From positions 1 to 64,000 of IMG/VR virus record IMGVR_UViG_3300032235_000647: a stretch of DNA of 64,000 bases; one strand, given 5' to 3'. Positions within the stretch are counted from its first letter, which is position 1; each line of letters starts with the position of its first letter. The notes below the pieces were generated by a model, which was given only the letters and a program-made list of their open reading frames with translations, had not been told where the DNA came from and did not search any database. A program made the position numbers and the translations under genes. This DNA is from a virus. Shown here piece after piece: positions 10,662 through 64,000 of this stretch.

Positions 10662-11279
10662 TTATTTATTGTGCTCACCTGGCTTACAAAATTTTCCTAA
10701 ATCTTGCCAGTTAGCTCTTGGTTTTTCATTCAAAAATACAAAACATTTCCATTGTTTTTGACCTTCAAAGAAAATATGTTTTTCTATATAGGAAGGAATC
10801 GCTGCATTTGTAGGAATTCTTTTTACTGGGTTGTCAAAATGTACGGTAATCAGAACGGTTAAATTTTCTGTATCATCCCATTTTCTTTCTTGTTCCTCTA
10901 ACAATCTCCACTCACCTCTATTAAGGTATTGGTCTTGAAGAATTGAATTAAGGTAAGAAAATGTTTGTTTTAGATTCTCCATATTATCGGAGAATGTTGC
11001 TGCAGGAGCACCGTGTCCTTTATCGTAAATGTTTTTGAAATAATCATCCGCATCGGATGTTTTGATGTTAGGTTCTTTATAAAAATCCATTGAACCTCTA
11101 TTTACATTTGTTGGACGATTAGTAGAACGATATCTAATCCAAAGTGGTTGTTCTAAATCTTGTGAATAAAGTACTTCAAATACATTATTTTTTACTTTAA
11201 CATCACCTAATTTTTGGGAATACAAATCCCCAACAAATAAAAAAACTGCCAATACTGGCATTAATAAAAACTTTTTCAT
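10662..11279 (-). CDS. Secreted DNA/RNA non-specific endonuclease (NUC1 family)
   Basis: A 205-residue protein with an N-terminal signal peptide (Lys-rich start, hydrophobic 4-20, likely cleavage near residue 21 after DLYSQ). The beta-beta-alpha-metal nuclease motif is complete apart from one conservative change: DKGH at 86-89 (usual DRGH), N111, then LNRGEWRLLEE with N120 and E128. These match the spacing of the Serratia nuclease active site (His, two Asn, Glu). It would cleave DNA and RNA outside the cytoplasm or in the virion. A late-promoter-like element and an AAAGGAGA Shine-Dalgarno sequence precede the start, suggesting late expression. Confidence 0.8.
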   Translation of the reverse strand: MKKFLLMPVLAVFLFVGDLYSQKLGDVKVKNNVFEVLYSQDLEQPLWIRYRSTNRPTNVNRGSMDFYKEPNIKTSDADDYFKNIYDKGHGAPAATFSDNMENLKQTFSYLNSILQDQYLNRGEWRLLEEQERKWDDTENLTVLITVHFDNPVKRIPTNAAIPSYIEKHIFFEGQKQWKCFVFLNEKPRANWQDLGKFCKPGEHNK

Positions 11280-11301
11280 ACTAAAATGGGTCTCCTTTTA
11301 G

Positions 11302-16390: not shown

Positions 16391-16723
16391 TTAAATTCCA
16401 CTTTCCATTCGTTGAACCTGATTGTGGTAGTCAGCCTCTGAGTATTCTACTACTGATAAACCAGGGGTGAACTTTGTCATTAGATAACCATCTTTACCAA
16501 CAAAATCAATCACCCTGTCAATGAATTGTTGAATCATGTAAGTCATATCAGAAGAACCAAATCCTTGGTCTTCATCCCACATATCTGTCCATTCTTCGGC
16601 AACTTCGGTTGCTAGTTCTAATAAATCCCATTGGGCAACACGAGTATCTCTAATCAATTCGGTAAAACCTTTGATTCGGTGAGAGTTAAAAAGTAAAGTC
16701 TGTGGGTCAACTATGTAATTCAT
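16391..16723 (-). CDS. Hypothetical acidic protein with CCCCTAAA leader
   Basis: A 110-residue protein starting MNYIVDPQTLLFNSHRIKG and acidic in the middle (ATEVAEEWTDMWDEDQGF). No family is recognised. The start is preceded by the CCCCTAAACCCCTCATATT leader and a host-like promoter at 16762-16793, the arrangement shared with the small-gene cluster at 53-56 kb. That suggests early, independent expression of an accessory protein acting on the host. Confidence 0.6.
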   Translation of the reverse strand: MNYIVDPQTLLFNSHRIKGFTELIRDTRVAQWDLLELATEVAEEWTDMWDEDQGFGSSDMTYMIQQFIDRVIDFVGKDGYLMTKFTPGLSVVEYSEADYHNQVQRMESGI

Positions 16724-16761
16724 AATATGAGGGGTTTAGGGGTTATGTTTTATATTGAATA

Positions 16762-16793
16762 CAATTATACGAAAAAAATTTTACATTTCCTAG
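16762..16793 (-). promoter_or_regulatory. Host-like promoter
   Basis: CTAGG, spacer, TATAATTG upstream of the 110-residue gene, followed by an AACCCCTAAA leader. Confidence 0.6.
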
Positions 16794-16811
16794 TACTTTG
16801 GAAAATAATTT

Positions 16812-17096
16812 TTATACTAGTTGCATTTTCTGCAACTCTCCACCAAGTCCCTCAACCACTATGGGCTTGGAGAACTTAACCTCGTGGTCTATGTACTCAT
16901 AACGAGAATACTCATTACTCTGGGCTTCCACCAAATTAATAAGAGCGAGTTTCAAATCCTCCTTGTAGGCATACATCACCAAATCGGAGTCAATCGGAAA
17001 AGAGAAATCCACTCCACCTTTGGGTTTCCAATAAGGAGTTTGGTTATCGGAATAATTCTCGTAATACTGGGCGGAAACTAAAACACTAATCATCAT
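16812..17096 (-). CDS. Hypothetical protein, early-type
   Basis: A 94-residue protein (MMISVLVSAQYYENYSDN, then PYWKPKGGVDFSFPIDSD). Two consecutive ATG codons are present, and the first follows AAAAGATATG. No domain is recognised. The QYYENYSDxxxPYWKPKGG segment looks like a compact beta domain. A dedicated promoter (17134-17165) and a CCCCTAAA leader precede it. A probable accessory gene of unknown role. Confidence 0.6.
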   Translation of the reverse strand: MMISVLVSAQYYENYSDNQTPYWKPKGGVDFSFPIDSDLVMYAYKEDLKLALINLVEAQSNEYSRYEYIDHEVKFSKPIVVEGLGGELQKMQLV

Positions 17097-17133
17097 ATCT
17101 TTTATCGTTTAGGGGTTATCTGTTATTACTTTA

Positions 17134-28008: not shown

Positions 28009-28500
28009 TTAGAATTCCAAGATTGCGTAATCGTAAGAAATTGTTAATTCGATTGTGGCAGGATCAGTACCAGTTGCCCAATCCAAATCACCAAAGTTTG
28101 CTTGTGTAATGAAAGCACCTTTCAATGTCCATTGTTCGATTTTATCACCTACTGGACCTAACATATAACACTGGATATCTTTCTTATACATATCAGCATA
28201 TCCATTTCTACCAGTTAGAGATTCATGTGATAAACGAACCCACTCCATTACCGCTTGTGCTCCAGATGGAACAATTGGGTCATAAAGAGTCATTGTAATA
28301 TCTTGCCACTCACCCTTACCTTTAAGTTGTCTTTTAACATTAATGTGGTCTAGGGTAACCTTTTCAAACTGAATTGTAGGTCTTTGTGATGCTTTAATTA
28401 AATATGAAGGAATACCACCTACTTCGAAGATGAAGCGGTTCTTCATCTTCGGTTCGAAATTGGTATAGAACATTTCATTAAATTCTAATACTTCTGCCAT
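28009..28500 (-). CDS. gp19: Tail tube protein (gp19-like)
   Basis: A 163-residue protein of the contractile tail tube family: NRFIFEVGGIPSYLIKASQRP at about 21-41, GEWQDITMTLYDP at 64-76, DIQCYMLGPVGDKIEQWTL and a C-terminal GDLDWATGTDPATIELTISY typical of T4 gp19. It polymerises as hexameric rings forming the inner tube. It directly follows the sheath gene, has a late-promoter-like element and ATAGGAGA Shine-Dalgarno sequence, and is followed by a strong terminator, consistent with high expression. Confidence 0.92.
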   Translation of the reverse strand: MAEVLEFNEMFYTNFEPKMKNRFIFEVGGIPSYLIKASQRPTIQFEKVTLDHINVKRQLKGKGEWQDITMTLYDPIVPSGAQAVMEWVRLSHESLTGRNGYADMYKKDIQCYMLGPVGDKIEQWTLKGAFITQANFGDLDWATGTDPATIELTISYDYAILEF

Positions 28501-28523
28501 TTTTTATTTTCTCCTATTATACT

Positions 28524-28554: not shown

Positions 28555-30879
28555 TTATGCTGTAAATGAAGCTCCAGTTGGCAAGATGTTGAAATCTAAC
28601 ACGATAAATTCAGCAGTTCTTGTTGGTTGTAAGAAAATCTGTCCAGCCAAGATGTTTCTATCGATTACATCAGGAGTATTGTTTGATTCATCCATTACTA
28701 CACGGAATGCAAACAAACCTTGTCTTTGCTGAATACCTTCCAAGTATGGATTTACAGTATTCAAGAATCTTGAACGAGTTTGTGCAGTGTTTTGTTCGAA
28801 TACCAAGTATCTTGAAGTAGATGCAATGTATTTCTTAACTTTAATCAACAATCTTCTTACATTGATTCTATCAAGTGCAGATGCTCTGTCTTGAAGAGTC
28901 TTCTGTCCAAATGCAACGATACCTTCTCCAGGGAATTGAGCAATTGGGTTTACTTTGTTCTCATATAGAGTATCTCTTTCAGCATGTGTTAATCTATTCA
29001 ATACACTAACTGCACCAGTGATACCACCTCTATTCAAACCAGCAGGAGCAAACCACTCTGCGGCGATAGCATCGTTGGCAGCGTAGATTCCTGGCATCAA
29101 TACTGATGGTGGAACGATAGTTAGTTTGTTTGTTCTTGAATCAATTGTTTTAACCCAAGGATAGTAAGAACCCACATAGTTAGAATCAACATTTTGTGCT
29201 TCACCTGTTACTAAATCAATTGTATCATCGTAATCACTTAATTCACCAATAAAGAACGCATCTTCTCTAGCCTCTACCATATCAACAATCTTATCAAATA
29301 CATAAGAGTGTAGTCTTCTAACAACACCAGGAGCAGCTACCAAGTTGATATCAAAATCATCAGGGTTAGATACTGAATTGATTGCTTTTACATAAGCAAC
29401 TGAACCACTTGTTGTAGGGTTAGCCAAGTTGAATCCTTGTGAGTTTCCAGCTCCCCAATCAGTATCACCAACTTTTGCCAAAGCATGTTTTACAACAGGA
29501 GATATTCCATCAAATCCACCTTGGAAACCTACCGTAAATTGTCTTTTAGCAACATCAGTAGTATTTGAACCAGTTAATAAATAATTAAATGGTACATCAT
29601 CAAATGAGAAATGTATATTTGAACCAGTACTAGCATTATTTGGAATTGGAGCCAAGAAGTAATTATTATCTACTTTTACAATTGAAGTTTCTAAATCAAT
29701 ACCTGAATATCTAAATGTAGATGATGAAGTATTATCATGTGAACCAGTTGAGAAGATAACTGCAGGTGTTATTGAATTATTTCCTCGGATTGGAGAAAGA
29801 TATGCCTCATGTCCGAATGGTCCTGCCGTAATTGGAAAAGAACCTTCTTCTGAAACTTCAACTCTAACAAGTCTAGAACGATTTGCATAATCTCCATTCA
29901 TTGTCATCTTACCATTTGCATCAATAGTGATGTTTTGGTCACCAATTATTTTTAAAATATAATTAGGTGAAGACGGGTCTAAATTAACATTATTATAAGT
30001 TTCTAAAATTGATTTTCTTCTATCAGTATCAGAATATGCTCTAATCACAATTGAGAAAGTTGCATAATCAGTAGCATTTGACTCACCAGCTGCCTTTACA
30101 TTAAAAATAGAAATTTTGTATTCATTATTAGCATATGTACCATCACCTAATGTGTGGAAACGGAACAATTGATGGGTTTCACCAGAAATTTCTTGAGAAA
30201 TAATCCAAGGAGTGGATGCGAATGTGCAATCTTGACTAGAAAAACTTTGCTCACCTAAACTTACCAATGAAACAGTTGACCCAGAATCTTCATTGAAGAT
30301 AGATTCTGCTGCGTTTTCAAAGAATTGAGAAACATACACCCCTTTAGACCCTCGTGGATTACCACCAAATACATCAGATAAATCATTTCCAGCTGTGTAT
30401 AGGATTGATGCAGATACTGAAGTATTGTATGCAGAATCAGAACCACTCAATACAATATTGAATACTGATGATGATACTTGAGCATCAATTGATGCGGTGA
30501 TAGCATCACCATTTCCAGAGGTTGTCCAGTGATGAGTTGATTTTAAAACACCAACTAATTTTTCTCCATTAGAACCTGATACTTTAATACCAACTGATCC
30601 TTGTTGAGTATATCCACCGATATGCCCAACACGAACAATAGTTACAGTTCCAGCTTCTCTTAAATAATTTTGAACCGCGTACCCAGTGTAGTAAGAACCA
30701 TCTGGTGTACCGAAAATTGATTCAAATTCTGATTGGGTGTTTACTACGGTTGGTGCGAAAGCAGGTCCTTTAGAAAAAGGTCCGATTATTGCTGCTCCGA
30801 TTTCTCCAATACCTTGTGATAAGAAAGAAAGGTCATTCTCTCTAGTAAATACACCTGGTGATACAATCTTTTCTGCCAT
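28555..30879 (-). CDS. gp18: Tail sheath protein (gp18-like)
   Basis: A 774-residue protein with sheath hallmarks: the N-terminal SPGVFTRENDLSFL, then IGAAIIGPFSKGPAFAPTVV and NYLREAGTVTIVRVG, and a C-terminal domain with NRLTHAERDTLYENKVNPIAQFPG-type sequence, GIVAFGQKTLQ, INVRRLLIKVKKYI and LVFEQNT. The middle is enlarged by surface domains (residues 100-450) exposed on the sheath. Contracts to drive the tube into the host. Late-promoter-like element and AAAGGAG precede the start. Confidence 0.93.
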   Translation of the reverse strand: MAEKIVSPGVFTRENDLSFLSQGIGEIGAAIIGPFSKGPAFAPTVVNTQSEFESIFGTPDGSYYTGYAVQNYLREAGTVTIVRVGHIGGYTQQGSVGIKVSGSNGEKLVGVLKSTHHWTTSGNGDAITASIDAQVSSSVFNIVLSGSDSAYNTSVSASILYTAGNDLSDVFGGNPRGSKGVYVSQFFENAAESIFNEDSGSTVSLVSLGEQSFSSQDCTFASTPWIISQEISGETHQLFRFHTLGDGTYANNEYKISIFNVKAAGESNATDYATFSIVIRAYSDTDRRKSILETYNNVNLDPSSPNYILKIIGDQNITIDANGKMTMNGDYANRSRLVRVEVSEEGSFPITAGPFGHEAYLSPIRGNNSITPAVIFSTGSHDNTSSSTFRYSGIDLETSIVKVDNNYFLAPIPNNASTGSNIHFSFDDVPFNYLLTGSNTTDVAKRQFTVGFQGGFDGISPVVKHALAKVGDTDWGAGNSQGFNLANPTTSGSVAYVKAINSVSNPDDFDINLVAAPGVVRRLHSYVFDKIVDMVEAREDAFFIGELSDYDDTIDLVTGEAQNVDSNYVGSYYPWVKTIDSRTNKLTIVPPSVLMPGIYAANDAIAAEWFAPAGLNRGGITGAVSVLNRLTHAERDTLYENKVNPIAQFPGEGIVAFGQKTLQDRASALDRINVRRLLIKVKKYIASTSRYLVFEQNTAQTRSRFLNTVNPYLEGIQQRQGLFAFRVVMDESNNTPDVIDRNILAGQIFLQPTRTAEFIVLDFNILPTGASFTA

Positions 30880-30922
30880 TTTATATTACTCCTTTATAAT
30901 TTCAATTATGTAATGATACGAA

Positions 30923-50985: not shown

Positions 50986-52134
50986 TTATCCTATATAAAT
51001 TGCAAGTGGCACTTTTCCTATAATCTTTTGTTGTTGGTCAACCATTTCTGCCTCATTGGACATTCTAGTTTTTCTACTTACTTCTTCCAAGTTTTCTCTT
51101 AATTGAGTAATCAAGTTGTCCTTTTCAGTTTGAGCTTCTGCTCTTAAAGCAGCACCATCAAGGGAAACTTCTGAACCAGGAATTGGCACTGTATTATATT
51201 TCTCTCTAATAGCACCCAACATTTCTTTTGCAAGTGCAAGAGTATATTTTCTAATCCATTGTTTACCCACATCATTAATTTGTGAGTAAGTTGCAAAATT
51301 ATACTCAATATTAGAATAATCAGACATTACATTTGGTCTAACAACAGTTGAATTTTCTCTAAATTCAGTATCTACATAGTACTCAAACCATAATTGATAA
51401 TCGGAAGTTGGTATTGGGAATATTTTTAATTTATTATTTACAATATTGAATGTATGAGCCGATTTACGGAACTGGTCATTAAATTCAATTGCTTGAATTC
51501 TCAACATATCCTCATAAAGAGGCATTAATATGAATTGTGCAGCTGGTGAAAATGAGCCAAATCCAAATTCATCAATTAAGTTTAATGTACCTTGACCTGA
51601 TACTGAATAAGGGTCAAAGAATCGATTGATTGCAGGAGTTGCCTCATAAAATACTCTAGTTACTGATATTCTTTCACCACCTTCGGCTACATCAGCAAAT
51701 TCTTGTAAATCATAATCTTGTACACCCTCAGTCATATTAATAGAACCAGATTTTATACTAGTTCTACCACCTACTCCTGCTTGACTTCCGTATGCTTGCG
51801 AAATTTCAATTACATTATTTAATTCTGAGCCATTTACTTGTTTTCCAGTATAATTTACACCAGTTGGTCTACCTTGTAATGCACCAAGATTATTTCGAAT
51901 ATTGAATTGATTTACTTGGGCAGAATATTCAGAAACAGCCTCTTCAAATACTGCAAAAAAGTTTTCACCTTCTAATTCTATATCAATTATAGGATACCCA
52001 AGGCGTTTAGCACACCAAGATGCAACTTTTGGTGCTTCTGTTCTAAATTCAGAATCAGAATCATAAATACCAAAAGGGGTTGATGAACCCGTTACAAATA
52101 CAGCTGAACCTGTCCAAATTCGTGCTTGAGACAT
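50986..52134 (-). CDS. gp13: Neck protein (gp13-like)
   Basis: A 382-residue protein. The C-terminal half holds the gp13 signature: WIRKYTLALAKEMLGAIREK, then PIPGSEVSLDGAALRAEAQ and a coiled-coil end (EKDNLITQLRENLEEVS). The N-terminal half contains VASWCAKRLGYPIIDIEL and AVFEEAVSEYSAQVN. gp13 sits under the portal and recruits gp14. First gene of the neck operon; a late-promoter-like element (52167-52176) precedes it and a terminator of the previous gene lies just upstream. Confidence 0.85.
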   Translation of the reverse strand: MSQARIWTGSAVFVTGSSTPFGIYDSDSEFRTEAPKVASWCAKRLGYPIIDIELEGENFFAVFEEAVSEYSAQVNQFNIRNNLGALQGRPTGVNYTGKQVNGSELNNVIEISQAYGSQAGVGGRTSIKSGSINMTEGVQDYDLQEFADVAEGGERISVTRVFYEATPAINRFFDPYSVSGQGTLNLIDEFGFGSFSPAAQFILMPLYEDMLRIQAIEFNDQFRKSAHTFNIVNNKLKIFPIPTSDYQLWFEYYVDTEFRENSTVVRPNVMSDYSNIEYNFATYSQINDVGKQWIRKYTLALAKEMLGAIREKYNTVPIPGSEVSLDGAALRAEAQTEKDNLITQLRENLEEVSRKTRMSNEAEMVDQQQKIIGKVPLAIYIG

Positions 52135-53480: not shown

Positions 53481-53702
53481 TTATTTCAATTTATAGGAGA
53501 ATAATGTACCACAATCATCATCATCCAAACTATCCTCCACAACGGTAATCGTATCACCAATTATGGATTGAAGTTTATTTACATCTACTCGTTTCCAATA
53601 TCCAAATCGGAGAAACATCCGAGTAGTACCAACTACATTATCTACTTTGTACTCACCGAATTCGGCTTGGATTTGTTCGTGGAGAAGGGAAGAAATATTC
53701 AT
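53481..53702 (-). CDS. Hypothetical protein, promoter-proximal
   Basis: A 73-residue protein (MNISSLLHEQIQAEFGEYKV), ending with a very acidic VVEDSLDDDDCGTLFSYKL. Beta-alpha pattern, unknown family. It is the first gene after the composite terminator-promoter at 53740-53777, with an AACCCCTAACC leader. Likely early-expressed. Confidence 0.55.
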   Translation of the reverse strand: MNISSLLHEQIQAEFGEYKVDNVVGTTRMFLRFGYWKRVDVNKLQSIIGDTITVVEDSLDDDDCGTLFSYKLK

Positions 53703-53739
53703 AATTTTAGAGGTTAGGGGTTTAATTTTTATTACTTAA

Positions 53740-53771
53740 CAAATATATAAAAAAGACCTGAATAATCCAAG
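53740..53771 (-). promoter_or_regulatory. Host-like promoter fused to a terminator
   Basis: CTTGG, spacer, TATATTTG before the 73-residue gene. The spacer carries the T-tract of a hairpin terminator. Confidence 0.65.
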
Positions 53772-53777
53772 TCTTTT
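53749..53777 (-). terminator. Terminator fused with a promoter
   Basis: AAAAGACTTG and CAGGTCTTTT arms (one G-U) followed by Ts, directly after the 69-residue gene. The TTG of the stem is the -33 element of the next promoter. Confidence 0.6.
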
Positions 53778-53788
53778 CGAAAATATTT

Positions 53789-53998
53789 TTAATATTTTTT
53801 TGCTGATTCAAGGTGTAGTAGTATTGTTTTTAATCCACCTTTTAGATATCCCGCCTCAAATGCCAGTTGAGACATCAATTCAGGAGAATGTTCCTTAGAA
53901 GCAGGTTCGGCCTCAGTCAAGGTAGAGTGGATTGTAGATTCAATCGAATTAACTAATTCAATTAGTTGGGCTTTGGTGTAAGTTCGGTAATTATACAT
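53789..53998 (-). CDS. Hypothetical helical protein
   Basis: A 69-residue helical protein (MYNYRTYTKAQLIELVNSIE ... GGLKTILLHLESAKKY). It follows the 79-residue gene by 20 nt and starts after an AACCCCTAAACA leader. A terminator-promoter element starts immediately after its stop. Function is unknown. Confidence 0.55.
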   Translation of the reverse strand: MYNYRTYTKAQLIELVNSIESTIHSTLTEAEPASKEHSPELMSQLAFEAGYLKGGLKTILLHLESAKKY

Positions 53999-54018
53999 AT
54001 TGTTTAGGGGTTTAAAGG

Positions 54019-54258
54019 TTAAACATCAGCAGATGCCAACCAGAGGTCATAAATAACATTATATTCAGTAGTAGTAATTTCGGATAAGTTCCAAAATACT
54101 CGTTCTCTAATCAAACTATCACTTACTCCGATGTATTCGTACACATCTTCGTAGTTATTCAAAACCCTAACCAAACCATCAAAAGTGGCACTAGGGTTAA
54201 TTTCATTACCCAATTCATCTGTTGGGAAGTTTGCGAGGTAGTATTCTCTGATATTCAT
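54019..54258 (-). CDS. Hypothetical protein, early-type
   Basis: A 79-residue protein from ATG 54258 (MNIREYYLANFPTDELGNEI). A longer frame to 54303 would overlap the -7 element of its promoter, so I reject that start. The region PTDELGxEINPxATFxGLxxxLNxxxDVYxYIGVxDSxxRERVF is a recognisable conserved style seen in many small phage proteins, with no function known. Its promoter (54293-54324) gives a leader of about 30 nt. Confidence 0.65.
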   Translation of the reverse strand: MNIREYYLANFPTDELGNEINPSATFDGLVRVLNNYEDVYEYIGVSDSLIRERVFWNLSEITTTEYNVIYDLWLASADV

Positions 54259-54292
54259 ATTTTTAAGTTTTAGTGTCTCTCTCATTACAGAA

Positions 54293-54324
54293 CTAAAATA
54301 CAAAGAAAAGCCTAGAATTCCAAA
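54293..54324 (-). promoter_or_regulatory. Host-like promoter
   Basis: TTTGGAAT, spacer, TATTTTAG about 35 nt before the 79-residue gene. Confidence 0.65.
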
Positions 54325-54489
54325 TGTTTAGGAAAATATTTTTAAATTATTTTTAAAATAAAAACCCACCACACTTGAGACCGAGAGAGAGAGAGTTAGT
54401 GTGTGGTGGGTGACCCAGGATGGATACTTTATATAGGAGAGAATGGTCTCAAAAAATAGGAGAACCTTGTATATCGCTAGAGTAGCATC
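54304..54489 (-). ncRNA. Intergenic region with interleaved inverted repeats; possible structured RNA
   Basis: 186 nt without a convincing gene. It contains an 11-bp perfect inverted repeat (54364-54374 with 54401-54411) and an 8-bp perfect repeat (54375-54382 with 54445-54452) that interlock, with a (CT)n tract between. In the transcript the two stems could form a pseudoknot or two alternative hairpins. The 11-bp stem is followed by Ts and may act as the terminator of the two-helix membrane protein gene. The host-like promoter of the next gene begins in the same region. Confidence 0.4.
54360..54411 (-). terminator. Long-loop hairpin after the two-helix membrane protein gene
   Basis: Perfect 11-bp ACCCACCACAC/GTGTGGTGGGT stem with a 26-nt CT-rich loop, followed by TTTTA. 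It may terminate the transcript or be part of a structured RNA. Confidence 0.6.
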
Positions 54490-54702
54490 TCAATCGCGAT
54501 AAGGGTTTTGTGGATGTGATTCCTTTGATGATTTTCCTATCATCATTACCAATACGAAACTGATAAGAGAACTCACCACCACTACTTCAAATGGGTGTCT
54601 TGCCCCTAACAAGACAATATCCCAGAAGAAGTAGGTGATGGGTTCAATGAAAAGGAGAAAACTAATAAATAAAACCAAGAAAACAAACATCAAATATTTC
54701 AT
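54490..54702 (-). CDS. Small membrane protein with two helices
   Basis: A 70-residue protein with two hydrophobic segments, about 3-30 (YLMFVFLVLFISFLLFI) and 38-57 (PFEVVVVSSLISFVLVMM), and a polar C-terminus (GKSSKESHPQNPYRD). Probably an inner-membrane protein. Its size and topology would fit superinfection exclusion or holin-like roles but nothing specific supports either. Preceded by an AACCCCCTATACGATATG leader. Confidence 0.65.
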   Translation of the reverse strand: MKYLMFVFLVLFISFLLFIEPITYFFWDIVLLGARHPFEVVVVSSLISFVLVMMIGKSSKESHPQNPYRD

Positions 54703-54715
54703 ATCGTATAGGGGG

Positions 54716-54889
54716 TTATTTTTTTCTATTTCTTAATTGCAGTATAAGTTGGTATCCATCAAACTCGGCCTCTTTAAGAGAGAATCCATTTTGTAAGTTC
54801 ATCAATCTAGTTGATTCGTAGATTTTTCGTTCTTCAGGAGTCAATGACGCGAAGAATTCAAAGTTGGGGGAGTTGTTGTTAGTACTCAT
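54716..54889 (-). CDS. 57-residue small protein
   Basis: Starts MSTNNNSPNFEFFASLTPEE with RKIYESTRLMNLQNGFSLKE following. Two-helix pattern. An AACCCCTCATAAC leader precedes the ATG, linking it to the other accessory genes, and its start follows the stop of the 39-residue gene. Function unknown. Real by context and codon style. Confidence 0.6.
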   Translation of the reverse strand: MSTNNNSPNFEFFASLTPEERKIYESTRLMNLQNGFSLKEAEFDGYQLILQLRNRKK

Positions 54890-58798: not shown

Positions 58799-60415
58799 TT
58801 ATACTAAAGCTAAATCTTTAACATAAATCTTACCATAGAATTCAGGACGAACCATCTTCTTAGCGTAACGAGTCATTACCCCGCGTCTTGGAGTAAAGTT
58901 AGTTGGATCGTACACTAATGGAGTCATAATCAATGGAACGTAAGGAGCGTATACAGCACCAGTCTCAAGGAAGTTAGAACCTTTGAAACCTAACAAAATC
59001 TCGTTAGATGTCATGTAAGGGTTCTTGTAAACAGTATATCTGTTTGCCATTGAACCAACTTGAGAAACACCAGCAGCAAACTGCATAGCATCTTTATCAG
59101 CATTTACCATGAATCCTGGGATTGATTCCAAGATAGTAGCTACATCTGGAGATACTACAACGAAGTTAGCACCACCACGAAGAGTTAATTGGTGAATCTT
59201 GTTAGATACTTTGTTCAACTTAGCACCAAGAGTTTGGAACCAAGTGTTCTTAGTGTAAGCAGCAGCGTTAGTACCAGCTACCCAAGTAGAACCATTCCAC
59301 TCTTCACCCAATGTTGCTGACCAGTACTCAGTAGTCAAAGCGTTAGCCTTCAACATATCAAGGATTTCAAGGTCAATCTCCAAAGAGATGTACTCTGACA
59401 ACATTGAAGTTAATTCAGCTTCTGCATCGATTGAGTGGTAAGCGTTCAAATCTTGAGCAAGTTCAGGAGTCCAAACTGCCTTCAACTTACGAGTCTTGGC
59501 TACGATAGCCTCAGAACGAAGTTCCAAATCAACTTCAGGAATACCTAAATCAGTTGCTGGTTCAGTTGGGTTAGCATCTTCGAAATCACCTCTTGTGTTA
59601 GCAGTTGGCTGCTTAGCATAAGTAATAGCGATTGAAGAAGTTGCGTTAGTTAAAGAAGTAACTTTTGCATAGAATACTGCAGAAGTTCCAGATAAATCAG
59701 AGTGAGCTGGGTAGAAAGTATCAGCTGCAGAGAATGCAGATGAAGAGATGTAAAATGCCTTAACACCTTCTAAATCAGCAGAAGTAAAGTTACCAGCCTG
59801 AGGGATAGTAATTTTAGCCAAAGTAGAGTTAGCTACTGAAGATGACAAAGAAGCATCAAATCCAACTTCTAACCAAGATGCAGTTGCAACAGTATAAGAA
59901 CCAGAAGCAATAGTTGCAGCTGATTCGTTGATAGTGTATGCAAATCTACCATCACCATAAAGACCGTTTACAGCAGCCTTAGTTCTACCGAAGTCACCAT
60001 TGAATGCTGATGTACCATTACCACCGAAAAGTGATTTTCCAGAGAATGCAGGATTAGAGGCTACAGCAGTACCATACTTGAAATCAAGATAGAAAATAAG
60101 ACCAGATGGAAGGTTCATTGGTTGAACTGAAACGAATTCTTTCGCTGCAATTTCACCAAAGATTCTTCTTACCAATGGAAGGGCTACGCCAGACCATTCT
60201 TCAGAACCTGCAGAGGTTCCGGTAGCAGTAGCTTCGTCAAGCAATTGTTTTGCTTGGTTTTCCAAAAGAACTGCGATTTGAGATTGCTCTCTAGATTTTA
60301 AACCTTCAAGAAGTCCAGTTTTTGCCCACTTAGCTTGTAACTGACGAGTTTCAGCCAACATTACTTGTTGTGGGTTCTTTCCTTCCATTAGTTTAGATAA
60401 ATTAAAATTTGCCAT
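58799..60415 (-). CDS. gp23: Major capsid protein (gp23-like)
   Basis: A 538-residue protein with gp23 features: an N-terminal propeptide-like region (about 1-60), AVLLENQAKQLLDEA at 48-62, VALPLVRRIFGEIAAKEFVS near 77-96, VQPMNLPSGLIFYLDFKYG, and later the conserved ARTRKLKAVWTPELAQDLNA-type segment and LGFKGSNFLETGAVYAPYVP. HK97 fold, cleaved by the prohead protease in T4 relatives. TTAGGAGA Shine-Dalgarno, strong terminator downstream, GC-richer synonymous codons than neighbours, all fitting very high expression. Confidence 0.93.
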   Translation of the reverse strand: MANFNLSKLMEGKNPQQVMLAETRQLQAKWAKTGLLEGLKSREQSQIAVLLENQAKQLLDEATATGTSAGSEEWSGVALPLVRRIFGEIAAKEFVSVQPMNLPSGLIFYLDFKYGTAVASNPAFSGKSLFGGNGTSAFNGDFGRTKAAVNGLYGDGRFAYTINESAATIASGSYTVATASWLEVGFDASLSSSVANSTLAKITIPQAGNFTSADLEGVKAFYISSSAFSAADTFYPAHSDLSGTSAVFYAKVTSLTNATSSIAITYAKQPTANTRGDFEDANPTEPATDLGIPEVDLELRSEAIVAKTRKLKAVWTPELAQDLNAYHSIDAEAELTSMLSEYISLEIDLEILDMLKANALTTEYWSATLGEEWNGSTWVAGTNAAAYTKNTWFQTLGAKLNKVSNKIHQLTLRGGANFVVVSPDVATILESIPGFMVNADKDAMQFAAGVSQVGSMANRYTVYKNPYMTSNEILLGFKGSNFLETGAVYAPYVPLIMTPLVYDPTNFTPRRGVMTRYAKKMVRPEFYGKIYVKDLALV

Positions 60416-60439
60416 TTTTATTGTCTCCTAATGTTTTGT

Positions 60440-61528
60440 TTATTTAATATTTGCTAATTGTTTGAATCTTTCAGCTAAAGCATTGCTTTCAGAAATAATC
60501 TCCTTCTTAGGAGCAGTTGAAGCAACTGGCTTAGATGCAAATGATTCGGTTAATTTGGTTTGTTTTACTTTTTTAGATGTACCACCCATTTTAAGTGATT
60601 CAGCTAAAGTAGAGAATACTAGTTTTACTTCTCTAACATTACCAGTTCTGTCTAATGTTTCAACAACTTTGTGCTTTTGCTCATTTGTCAAATCATAAGA
60701 ACGGAATAATTTGTTAGTGTAAAGTAATTTAGCGTTCAATAAGTTTACTTCATTAATGGTTTTCTTTAATGATTTGATTACTTTGTAAGCTTCTTCAAGT
60801 TCGGCTTCTTTTTCAGCCATTTCAGCTGCCATTTCTTCACCGTTTTCTTCTTCTTCAGAAACTTCTTCGTCATCACCATATCCCATTTCTCTCAAGATTT
60901 CGTCTAAATCGATTCCATCTGCTGCAGGCATTTCTTCTTCAGATTCTTCTTCATGCATTTCTTCGTCATCCTCTTCGTTCATTTCGTCTTCGGATTCTTC
61001 TTCGTGCATTTCTTCTTCCTCTTCTTCATGCATTTCTTCTTCACCTTCTTCTTCAAGTTCAGATTCCAATTCTCTGATGATTTCTGCTAAATCGAATTCA
61101 TCTTCGTCTTCTTCCTCTTCTTCAGGTAAATAAGATTGGGTTTCACCCGGTACTTCATCCTCGTCACCTTCAGATACAACATCATAGTCTTCTTCTTCTT
61201 TGCCTACTTCTGCTGTTTCTACTTCGGTATCAGGATTTCCTTTTGCTAATTCTGATGAGCTGTTAGCATCATCTGCTGGTTGCTTATTATCGCCAGTTCC
61301 AATATCAGATGCATCTTGATCTGGAGCTTCGCTTCCATCTGAATACTCTTCGTTTACTTCCTCTTCGTCATCCATATCTTCCATTTCTGCCTGGATTCTT
61401 CTGGATAAAGCGGCTTGTAATCTTGGAGCAAATGCTTCTTCTAGTGCGATTTTGGCGTTTGCAATTGCAGTTTCTCTAACGGCTTTGGCATCAGCAATAG
61501 CTTCTTTCAATAATTTTGAATTTGCCAT
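60440..61528 (-). CDS. Prohead scaffold/core protein (gp22-like)
   Basis: A 362-residue protein from ATG 61528 (MANSKLLKEAIADAKAVRET), preceded by AAAAGGAAGG. The 38-codon TTG extension upstream is less likely. The middle (70-270) is extremely acidic, with repeats of EEEMHEEESEDEMNEED, and the C-terminal 100 residues are helical (KEAELEEAYKVIKSLKKTIN). Charge, helicity and position immediately before the capsid gene fit the T4 gp22-type core scaffold, which is degraded on maturation. Exact homology to gp22 is inferred. Confidence 0.75.
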   Translation of the reverse strand: MANSKLLKEAIADAKAVRETAIANAKIALEEAFAPRLQAALSRRIQAEMEDMDDEEEVNEEYSDGSEAPDQDASDIGTGDNKQPADDANSSSELAKGNPDTEVETAEVGKEEEDYDVVSEGDEDEVPGETQSYLPEEEEEDEDEFDLAEIIRELESELEEEGEEEMHEEEEEEMHEEESEDEMNEEDDEEMHEEESEEEMPAADGIDLDEILREMGYGDDEEVSEEEENGEEMAAEMAEKEAELEEAYKVIKSLKKTINEVNLLNAKLLYTNKLFRSYDLTNEQKHKVVETLDRTGNVREVKLVFSTLAESLKMGGTSKKVKQTKLTESFASKPVASTAPKKEIISESNALAERFKQLANIK

Positions 61529-61750
61529 TTTTTGACCTTCCTTTTGTTTTTTGTCCGTGAAATTATTAGGAGAATTCCAATGTGGGGTTGATTTAAGGTC
61601 GGTTGTTCGGTCACCACTTAATAAAGGGTATTCATTAACCAACTTTTTAATAAAAATTCACATTAATGGTGAATTAATTATAAATAAATATATAATATGA
61701 AAATTAAACCTATAATTTTCTATATAAAATATATATTTTTTGTAAAAAAA
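61529..61750 (-). promoter_or_regulatory. Long leader of the scaffold-capsid unit
   Basis: 222 nt without a convincing gene. It holds a late-promoter-like element (61683-61692), a small hairpin (61655-61661 with 61669-61675) and, further on, an in-frame TTG at 61642 that could extend the scaffold by 38 residues. A leader of about 150 nt is longer than for other genes here and may influence expression of scaffold and capsid. Confidence 0.5.
61683..61692 (-). promoter_or_regulatory. Candidate late promoter
   Basis: TATATTTATT in the long leader of the scaffold and capsid genes. Confidence 0.5.
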
Positions 61751-61999
61751 TTACTTTTTATTCTTTTTACCACTATTATACTCACCACTTGCCATTCGTT
61801 CCAACATAACTTTTCTTTGGTTTTCGCGAATAGCCTTTAATTTAGTAGTTCGTCTAACAGTTTTTGGTTTTGTAAATTCTTTTCTATCTCTCAATTCAAG
61901 AAGATGTCCTGAATCGTTTACTTTCTTTTTAAAAACCTTGAGTGCCTTTGCAATATCTCCGTTTTTAACTATAACCTTAATTAGTGCTGTTTTTGCCAT
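61751..61999 (-). CDS. rpsU: Ribosomal protein bS21 homologue
   Basis: An 82-residue protein aligning without gaps to bS21: IKVIVKNGDIAKALKVFKKK (7-26), GHLLELRDRKEFTKPKTVRR (31-50) and TTKLKAIRENQRKVML. Residue 58 is Arg where Bacteroidota bS21 carries a Tyr (KAAY/KAVY), recalled to help sequester the 16S anti-Shine-Dalgarno tail. The C-terminal 15 residues are a Lys/Gly-rich extension. It likely replaces host bS21 on 30S subunits and could favour phage late mRNAs with AGGAG sites. It sits in the head operon, so expression is probably late. Confidence 0.88.
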   Translation of the reverse strand: MAKTALIKVIVKNGDIAKALKVFKKKVNDSGHLLELRDRKEFTKPKTVRRTTKLKAIRENQRKVMLERMASGEYNSGKKNKK

Positions 62000-62042
62000 T
62001 TATATGAAAATTAATTTAATATAAGTATTCTTTTTTTATTTT

Positions 62043-62568: not shown

Positions 62569-63216
62569 TTAATTCAGATTTTTTTTTTCGTCTAGTTTAG
62601 ATTCTAACTTAGTTCTTATTTTATTAGTAACTCTATTCAATTCTTTTTTATCAATACCTAGTGCATCCAAAACTCTACCCATTACTTGTAATTTTTGTGG
62701 ATATGTTAGTTTCTTTGCATCAAGTATATCTAACGCCTTTTGTAATTTGAGTCTTACATCACCGGGAATTGGTGCCTTATTAACATCTTCACCTGCTTCG
62801 GATATGGATTCTCTGATTCCTAATCTTTTTTTCATTTCGTCTTCAGTAATTTCTCCCATCTTGTAATATCTATTAAGAATATGACCCATATCTTCATACA
62901 ATCCGTGTAATCTCTGGTCTAATGAATTAGCTTCAGTTGCACACTTATCAAACTCTTTACCTAACTTATCTAATTCATTCAAGTTTCGTTTGATAGTCAC
63001 TTTATCAAACCAGTCATCACTTTCACCTAACAATAAAGTTTTTGCAGCTTCGGTAATTCCACCTAAAACTTCTGCAACTTCGGTAATATCGGATTTTCTA
63101 TCCATCATTTCTTGATATTTGTTATATGTAGAAATGATTTCAAGGAAGTGTTTCTTCACTTGAGGTGATAATGTTCTAGGTTCTTCGTTTTCTTTTAGTA
63201 ATTTAGTTAATTTCAT
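62569..63216 (-). CDS. Head-region hypothetical protein, possible frameshift donor
   Basis: A 215-residue helical protein (MKLTKLLKENEEPRTLSPQV). Contains GKEFDKCATEANSLDQRLHG and a coiled C-terminus (TNKIRTKLESKLDEKKNLN). The MKLTKLLKE start resembles T4-like head-protein leader peptides cleaved by the prohead protease. The 3' end has GAA AAA AAA AAT, an A10 run permitting -1 slippage into the DVYPSAYAN frame. ATAGGAGA Shine-Dalgarno. Function unknown. Confidence 0.7.
   Translation of the reverse strand: MKLTKLLKENEEPRTLSPQVKKHFLEIISTYNKYQEMMDRKSDITEVAEVLGGITEAAKTLLLGESDDWFDKVTIKRNLNELDKLGKEFDKCATEANSLDQRLHGLYEDMGHILNRYYKMGEITEDEMKKRLGIRESISEAGEDVNKAPIPGDVRLKLQKALDILDAKKLTYPQKLQVMGRVLDALGIDKKELNRVTNKIRTKLESKLDEKKNLN
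62579..62588 (-). other. A10 slippery run (candidate -1 recoding site)
   Basis: Read on the coding strand, GAA AAA AAA AAT contains A AAA AAA, the canonical slippery heptamer, extended to ten A residues. A -1 shift continues as AAA TCT GAA TTA ATT and reaches the DVYPSAYAN domain. The run could also be a transcriptional slippage site or a homopolymer miscall. Confidence 0.55.
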
Positions 63217-63235
63217 TAGTATATTCTCCTATATG

Positions 63236-63487
63236 TTAATAAATACCAGGTCGGTCACCTTTTTTCATGGTATCTGCCCAAGTTTGAAACATTTTTTTAA
63301 TATCTGCTGGTAATTGTTTATCTCTTATCGTTAAAACTCCATCTTTACTGATATGGGCAATTATTTTATAGTCACCATTTTTTTCTTCGGCTCTATTCCA
63401 AATAGTTAAACCATTACCCATCCATCCCGAACCGATATCGTATTTTTTTGTTTCTTTAAGAATTGAAGTTAAACGAGTTGATTTCAT
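63236..63487 (-). CDS. Small head-region hypothetical protein
   Basis: An 83-residue protein (MKSTRLTSILKETKKYDIGS) with WMGNGLTIWNRAEEKNGDYK and HISKDGVLTIRDKQLPADIK. Small alpha-beta pattern. The MKxTxLxxILKE start resembles that of neighbouring head-region genes, suggesting a shared leader peptide. ATAGGAGATT Shine-Dalgarno. This style occurs in T4-like phages, function unknown. Confidence 0.7.
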   Translation of the reverse strand: MKSTRLTSILKETKKYDIGSGWMGNGLTIWNRAEEKNGDYKIIAHISKDGVLTIRDKQLPADIKKMFQTWADTMKKGDRPGIY

Positions 63488-63499
63488 TAGTATAATCTC

Positions 63500-64000
63500 C
63501 TATCTAAATTTATTAATCAAGGATCTAAAACGAGATCCAAGTGAACCTTTTTTTGATTTATCAGCATCCGATTCTCTGTCACGATTTTGAGTAGGTGGCG
63601 GAGGAGGAGGCGGTGGCGGTGGAATTGAACCTGCTGGTCTTGGTTTCACACCTGGTGCACTTCCACTCTTTGGAATCGGTGGAGGTGGAGGTGGAGGAAG
63701 TTTACGAGCAGGTGCTGCAGCCTTTGGTGCTACCGTAGGTGGAACTTTAACCGAAGGTTTAGTATCCCACTTACTATTAGGTGCAACTGCTTTTGAAGAA
63801 TCCCATCCACTTGGTGCATTTTTTATCCAATCTGGCTCTTCCCATGCTCCTCCTTTTGAAGTTGTAGGTGGAGGAGTTTTCAAAGATGGTTTTCCACTAG
63901 GTGGTGGAGGTGGAGGTGGCGGTGGAACCGCACCTTTTGGTCTTACACCAGGAGGTGTTCCAACAGATTTTCCACTAGGTGGAGCAATAACTGGTGGTTT
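63500..64000 (-). CDS. Proline-rich virion-like protein, C-terminal part (runs off right edge)
   Basis: The frame is open from base 64000 to its stop at 63500 (166 residues seen). The N-terminus is outside. Most of it is Pro/Lys/Gly-rich low complexity with runs of eight to ten prolines separated by SGK and GVRPKG/GVKPRP units. A short basic end follows (GSLGSRFRSLINKFR). The repeated blocks are similar at DNA level. An internal TTG at 63883 is not needed as a start. Possibly a head or portal-linked tether; no function is assigned. Confidence 0.7.
   Translation of the reverse strand, partial: KPPVIAPPSGKSVGTPPGVRPKGAVPPPPPPPPPSGKPSLKTPPPTTSKGGAWEEPDWIKNAPSGWDSSKAVAPNSKWDTKPSVKVPPTVAPKAAAPARKLPPPPPPPIPKSGSAPGVKPRPAGSIPPPPPPPPPPTQNRDRESDADKSKKGSLGSRFRSLINKFR

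Follow-up and report, generated by a model that had tools for sequence, protein, structure and literature searches.

The window analysed here comprises the first 64,000 nt (bases 1-64000) of a 130-kb IMG/VR record. A gene for ribosomal protein bS21 lies next to structural genes of a phage, several of which are preceded by Shine-Dalgarno (SD) sites:

10662-11279, minus strand: DNA/RNA non-specific endonuclease (PF01223, E 5.9e-19), with SD AAAGGAG at 11292-11298
28009-28500, minus strand: tail tube (phrog_4542, E 3.7e-29)
28511-28515, minus strand: tube SD, AGGAG
28555-30879, minus strand: tail sheath (phrog_23, E 1.1e-71)
30889-30895, minus strand: sheath SD, AAAGGAG
50986-52134, minus strand: head-tail adaptor (phrog_211), SD match here 4 nt
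58799-60415, minus strand: major capsid protein of T4 gp23 type (phrog_138, E 1e-72)
60425-60429, minus strand: capsid SD, AGGAG, spacing 9
60440-61528, minus strand: scaffold-like protein, function taken from position and from the naming in the initial annotation, no PHROG match
61539-61544, minus strand: scaffold SD, AAAGGA
61751-61999, minus strand: phage bS21, 82 aa (PF01165 match, alignments and AlphaFold2)
62000-62024, minus strand: bS21 leader without SD (TTATATTAAATTAATTTTCATATAA), pairing with the 16S tail at -0.7 kcal/mol
62569-63216, minus strand: conserved 215-aa protein of the structural module, with SD in 42/42 orthologues of phages having Arg at bS21 position 54 (R54, see below)
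63226-63230, minus strand: SD of the 215-aa gene, AGGAG
63236-63487, minus strand: 83-aa protein of the structural module
63497-63501, minus strand: SD of the 83-aa gene, AGGAG

The bS21 gene is encoded on the same strand as the capsid gene and is not antisense to the structural genes. Its product scored 47.5 bits against PF01165 (Ribosomal_S21), whose curated cut-off is 27, and independent alignments placed its Arg58 in the column of Tyr54 of F. johnsoniae, the residue which stacks on A1534 (PMC9976891). The identity of the protein and its non-aromatic residue, both claimed in the initial annotation, were confirmed in this way, and the alignment check proposed there for the Tyr position gave the same residue; the alignment had been described as gapless, which was true from the first helix on, with a one-residue gap near the N-terminus. 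AlphaFold2 predicted helices at 16-30, 32-40 and 48-70, the last being the C-terminal helix expected in the bS21 fold to bear position 54, and it contained residue 58. With a mean pLDDT of 75.5 and a pTM of 0.34, the model can be trusted for its helices only, and the block 51-60 reached a mean pLDDT of 92. In place of the aromatic residue 54 typical of Bacteroidia-type bS21, which sequesters the anti-SD, the phage protein has Arg58. In 25 of 68 R54 bS21 genes (for example the L008, L011 and L033 loci) AGGAG was located 0-3 nt before the ATG (AAAGGAGAATG), a distance too short for a normal SD, and possibly pointing to autoregulation.

Among 91 viral bS21 proteins from scans of viral contigs, two phage records included, residue 54 was Arg in 68 and aromatic in 17. 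All of the 80 nearest cellular bS21 proteins belonged to Bacteroidota and all had Tyr54, in a set whose scan patterns were biased toward Bacteroidota and Tyr-type sequences. A further sample of 37 cellular bS21 proteins from the GTDB phylum Bacteroidota gave 18 with Tyr54 and 19 with Arg54, so cells with Arg54 do exist. In the bS21 tree the R54 phage proteins nested among Tyr54 proteins of Bacteroidia and the Arg54 cells formed a separate branch; the nesting node had a UFBoot of 83 on an alignment of about 65 residues, hence support is moderate. The tree was therefore in agreement with descent from Bacteroidia bS21, and Tyr54 was probably lost in the phages from a Bacteroidia-type protein, as judged from the position of the R54 clade inside the Tyr54 proteins. 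A search of the phage collection yielded no cultured phage with a bS21 close to the R54 proteins. Within that GTDB phylum, cellular bS21 (L257, L258 and others) comprised a Tyr54 group and an Arg54 group with moderate SD use. Two bS21 matches each were observed in cellular genomes G023, G025 and G063; the additional match may stem from a phage or may be a paralogue.

The SD sites named in the initial annotation for capsid, sheath, tube, nuclease, scaffold and the genes starting at 63216 and 63487 were all present as described. The AAAGATATG start context which it had assigned to accessory genes occurred at only four of 127 genes and was not upheld, the accessory genes being simply without SD. 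In the 130-kb record an SD match of at least 4 nt preceded 15 of 17 core structural genes versus 26 of 110 other genes (Fisher p=4.5e-7); the first ATG of each open frame served as its gene start, a choice which reduces SD detection somewhat, equally across the groups. The sites were concentrated in two structural blocks (27-52 kb and 58-74 kb), and the part from 74 to 113 kb, which carries sugar-nucleotide, glycosyltransferase and radical-SAM genes, was nearly SD-free. A 1829-aa protein encoded there (record 75370-80859, L012:11471-16960) has a cytidylyltransferase-like domain, a DUF5661 domain and an IF2_N match below threshold. Scanning the window against Rfam and for tRNA genes gave no match. 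Repeated C-rich leaders (AACCCCTAAAC and similar) were present before small ORFs without assigned function at 16391-17117 and 53481-54889, on the minus strand.

The same distribution was found in the R54 relatives. An SD of at least 5 nt preceded the capsid gene in 45 of 46 R54 contigs and the head-tail adaptor in 34 of 38 orthologues, and scaffold orthologues, which adjoin the capsid gene in R54 phages, carried an SD in 49 of 51; these counts are not independent, as R54 contigs within the clade are akin. Not every structural gene has the site, since at least 5 nt of SD was found at none of 25 terminase genes and at one of 36 portal genes. For structural versus other genes, matches of at least 4 nt gave p=5e-3 to 6e-11 across five whole or partial genomes, and AGGAG was the top enriched 5-mer of structural leaders (23/73 versus 32/1113, p=1.7e-15). 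Taken from the genomes, the evidence for a Tyr-less bS21 together with an SD pattern at structural genes is strong. Contigs L026-L030, L049 and L054 had been considered as SD-free R54 cases and were rejected: in L026 and L049 bS21 lies outside the structural module, and their records do have SD at some core structural genes located elsewhere. Tyr54 contigs L057, L058 and L070-L072 were likewise discarded as an unambiguous comparison group from that bS21 clade, since they have no structural genes and are uninformative on SD.

The host was approached through promoters of the form TTTG-N20-TAnnTTTG, the known promoter type of Bacteroidota. Upstream of genes in four long R54 relatives, TTTG-N19-21-TAnnTTTG was found 38 times in sense and never in antisense orientation, with about 1.3 expected:

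G004: 15 sense, 0 antisense, 0.5 expected
G007: 5 sense, 0 antisense, 0.4 expected
G005: 13 sense, 0 antisense, 0.3 expected
G003: 5 sense, 0 antisense, 0.1 expected

The usual form in these relatives was TTTGG...TTCGTATATTTG with a spacing of 20, and an SD of at least 5 nt occurred in one of 39 genes behind such promoters. The same type was abundant in Tyr54 cellular genomes (16 versus 0.7 expected) and in the Tyr54 phage G012 (29 versus 0.6), and was absent from the T4 and HTVC008M stretches. It was also absent from the tested stretches of immuto, a phage with a known Flavobacterium host, so its absence is uninformative. No such promoter was detected in the window record, and its host has to be read from its relatives; the window phage, whose capsid is 81% identical to that of G004, would share the host of these relatives. 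From promoters and the bS21 tree, the R54 virus family very probably infects Bacteroidota, and a non-Bacteroidota host, alphaproteobacterial or cyanobacterial, is not favoured for the same two reasons.

The host bears directly on the first alternative, in which the phages infect SD users from the wider Bacteroidota, or from another phylum, that have an Arg54 bS21 themselves, and the phage bS21 and SD sites just match these hosts. The Arg54 cells in the sample of 37 would suit it, as would their SD use (19% in Arg54 genome stretches versus a background of 7%, compared with 10% versus 10% for Tyr54), and for the window phage the host is deduced from relatives. Against it, the R54 phage proteins group with Tyr54 Bacteroidia and not with Arg54 cells, the promoters abundant in the four R54 phages are scarce in the sampled Arg54 cells (3 in 31.6 kb, at higher G+C), and in phage genes other than the structural ones SD is close to background (8-16% versus 7-9%). 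We regard this explanation as unlikely.

Residue 54 and SD do not always go together, as some aromatic-54 phages have SD and some R54 or M54 phages are nearly without it. Aromatic-54 lineages with SD at structural genes were L083/85, L345/346 and L353/354 (one clade, 36% SD). Structural genes had little SD in R54 phages L339/L341, noted together with G425 (10 Bacteroidota-type promoters versus 0.2 expected), and few or no SD in the M54 phage LR756508. In the structural-gene tree these SD-poor R54 and M54 phages branched at the base of the R54 clade with SD, so loss of the clamp may precede the gain of SD; the branching suggests that the clamp was lost first and that SD sites came afterwards. 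The gain of SD in the R54 clade was essentially a single evolutionary event, and the association of residue 54 with SD amounts to very few events.

The aromatic-54 phages with SD, and the finding that F. johnsoniae ribosomes without bS21 favour SD mRNAs (PMC9976891), would fit a second alternative: the structural SD sites are real and selected, but they act through ribosomes lacking bS21, by phage-induced loss or dilution, or merely add to initiation, and residue 54 is no switch. This appears improbable, because SD use in the first search tracked loss of the aromatic residue (SD at 6% in aromatic-54 contigs versus 34% in R54 contigs), and no SD enrichment was seen in Tyr54 Bacteroidia or in their phages having no bS21 or an aromatic one. 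Arg can stack on adenine, and the Arg of the phage protein could itself stack on A1534. A third alternative accordingly keeps the tail clamped, the Arg bS21 only securing enough bS21 for 30S subunits being made, and the SD pattern of the structural module being a legacy of an ancestor that used SD; L339/L341, R54 yet with hardly any SD, would agree with it. We consider it very unlikely, since the capsid SD is retained at about 74-82% capsid protein identity although the flanking leader varies, which argues for present selection, and the basal members without SD make SD look gained instead of inherited.

The most likely reading, for which we see about an even chance, is a switch by loss of the clamp. 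The phage would have acquired its bS21 gene from a Bacteroidia host, and the stacking of Tyr on A1534, which helps to keep the 3' tail of 16S rRNA within the bS21-bS18-bS6 pocket, would then have been lost. Early genes, with host-type promoters and no SD, would be translated by normal host ribosomes, and the phage bS21 gene, itself SD-less, should be readable by them. Phage bS21 would enter 30S subunits in place of host bS21, the anti-SD tail would be freed enough to pair, and structural mRNAs with AGGAG or AAGGA sites would gain, presumably late in infection. That this whole explanation holds, from an Arg bS21 freeing the tail to a gain of SD structural mRNAs, we rate marginally better than even. 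The broader claim, that a viral bS21 turns SD-blind Bacteroidota ribosomes into SD-reading ones and so separates early SD-less from late SD translation, falls a little short of even. The initial annotation had suggested a late swap of bS21 that frees the tail for structural mRNAs; this interpretation is supported in part: it gained from the promoters of the four R54 relatives, the SD-less genes behind them, the conserved structural SD, the derived loss of Tyr and the SD-free immuto without bS21, and it was weakened by the loose link between residue 54 and SD. A late switch to SD-driven translation is plausible, clearly more so than before.

The reading bears on the question of why phages carry bS21, and few clear examples of specialised ribosomes in bacteria exist. 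If it is true, this would be a ribosome specialised by a virus and a novel layer of gene control by viruses. It depends on one residue and a conserved SD set, for which F. johnsoniae Y54A mutants and toeprinting assays exist, so it is directly testable.

Several known systems share parts of this arrangement. Flavobacterium phage immuto (MW353175) has a related capsid (53.5%), terminase and portal, but no bS21 and SD at 3%. Microcystis phage Mel-JY01 (PP395634) has a related structural module which contains bS21, but with Lys54, a bS21 of another branch, weaker SD use and a cyanobacterium as recorded host. The module of Mel-JY01 (L017, L221-L223), recorded from Microcystis elabens, is common with Flavobacterium phages, and six Bacteroidota-type promoter matches were counted versus 0.5 expected, without a clear spacing peak; its recorded host may deserve a check. 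Pelagibacter phage HTVC008M (PMC6375957) also encodes a bS21, which enters E. coli ribosomes according to PMC9976891, but it uses SD widely and would need no such switch.

Phages of Bacteroidetes with bS21 were surveyed by Chen et al. 2022 (PMC9723584), who found only aromatic residues at position 54. Their phages share with our case a bS21 adjoining structural genes, a proposed late role and, probably, Bacteroidota hosts, and the survey concludes that phage bS21 may work like host bS21; its clades a-e differ in having an aromatic residue 54 and a bS21 antisense to structural genes, against Arg, the same strand and structural SD here. No coupling of phage bS21 to SD was reported in the passages of it that were consulted. 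Late action of phage bS21 in favour of phage mRNAs is already published (PMC9723584), and the part on Tyr loss and SD is new; our literature search, mainly of openly accessible articles, found no paper connecting late genes that bear SD with a phage bS21 lacking Tyr.

The nearest counterpart is the Y54A or bS21deltaC allele of F. johnsoniae (McNutt et al. 2023, PMC9976891), in which Tyr54 of a Bacteroidia-type bS21 is likewise lost and a gain of SD mRNAs is predicted. With Y54A or C-terminal loss, SD reporters rose 1.7-5 fold and most SD-less ones were nearly unchanged; for Y54A ribosomes the gain of SD mRNAs was 1.7-3 fold in vivo and 3-fold in vitro (PMC9976891). These data concern strong SDs (rpsU below -13 kcal/mol), and Y54A ribosomes showed no advantage over wild-type ones on m291, an mRNA with a weak SD (PMC9976891). 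Phage SDs pair at about -7 to -9 kcal/mol (capsid mean -7.8 kcal/mol) and are weaker than those of host rpsU, about -13 to -19 kcal/mol by the same calculation. The published allele is engineered, chromosomal, Ala-bearing and 64 residues long, whereas the phage version is natural, viral, Arg-bearing and 82 residues long and faces these weaker SDs; if the proposed switch is true, the Y54A mutant would have its counterpart in nature.
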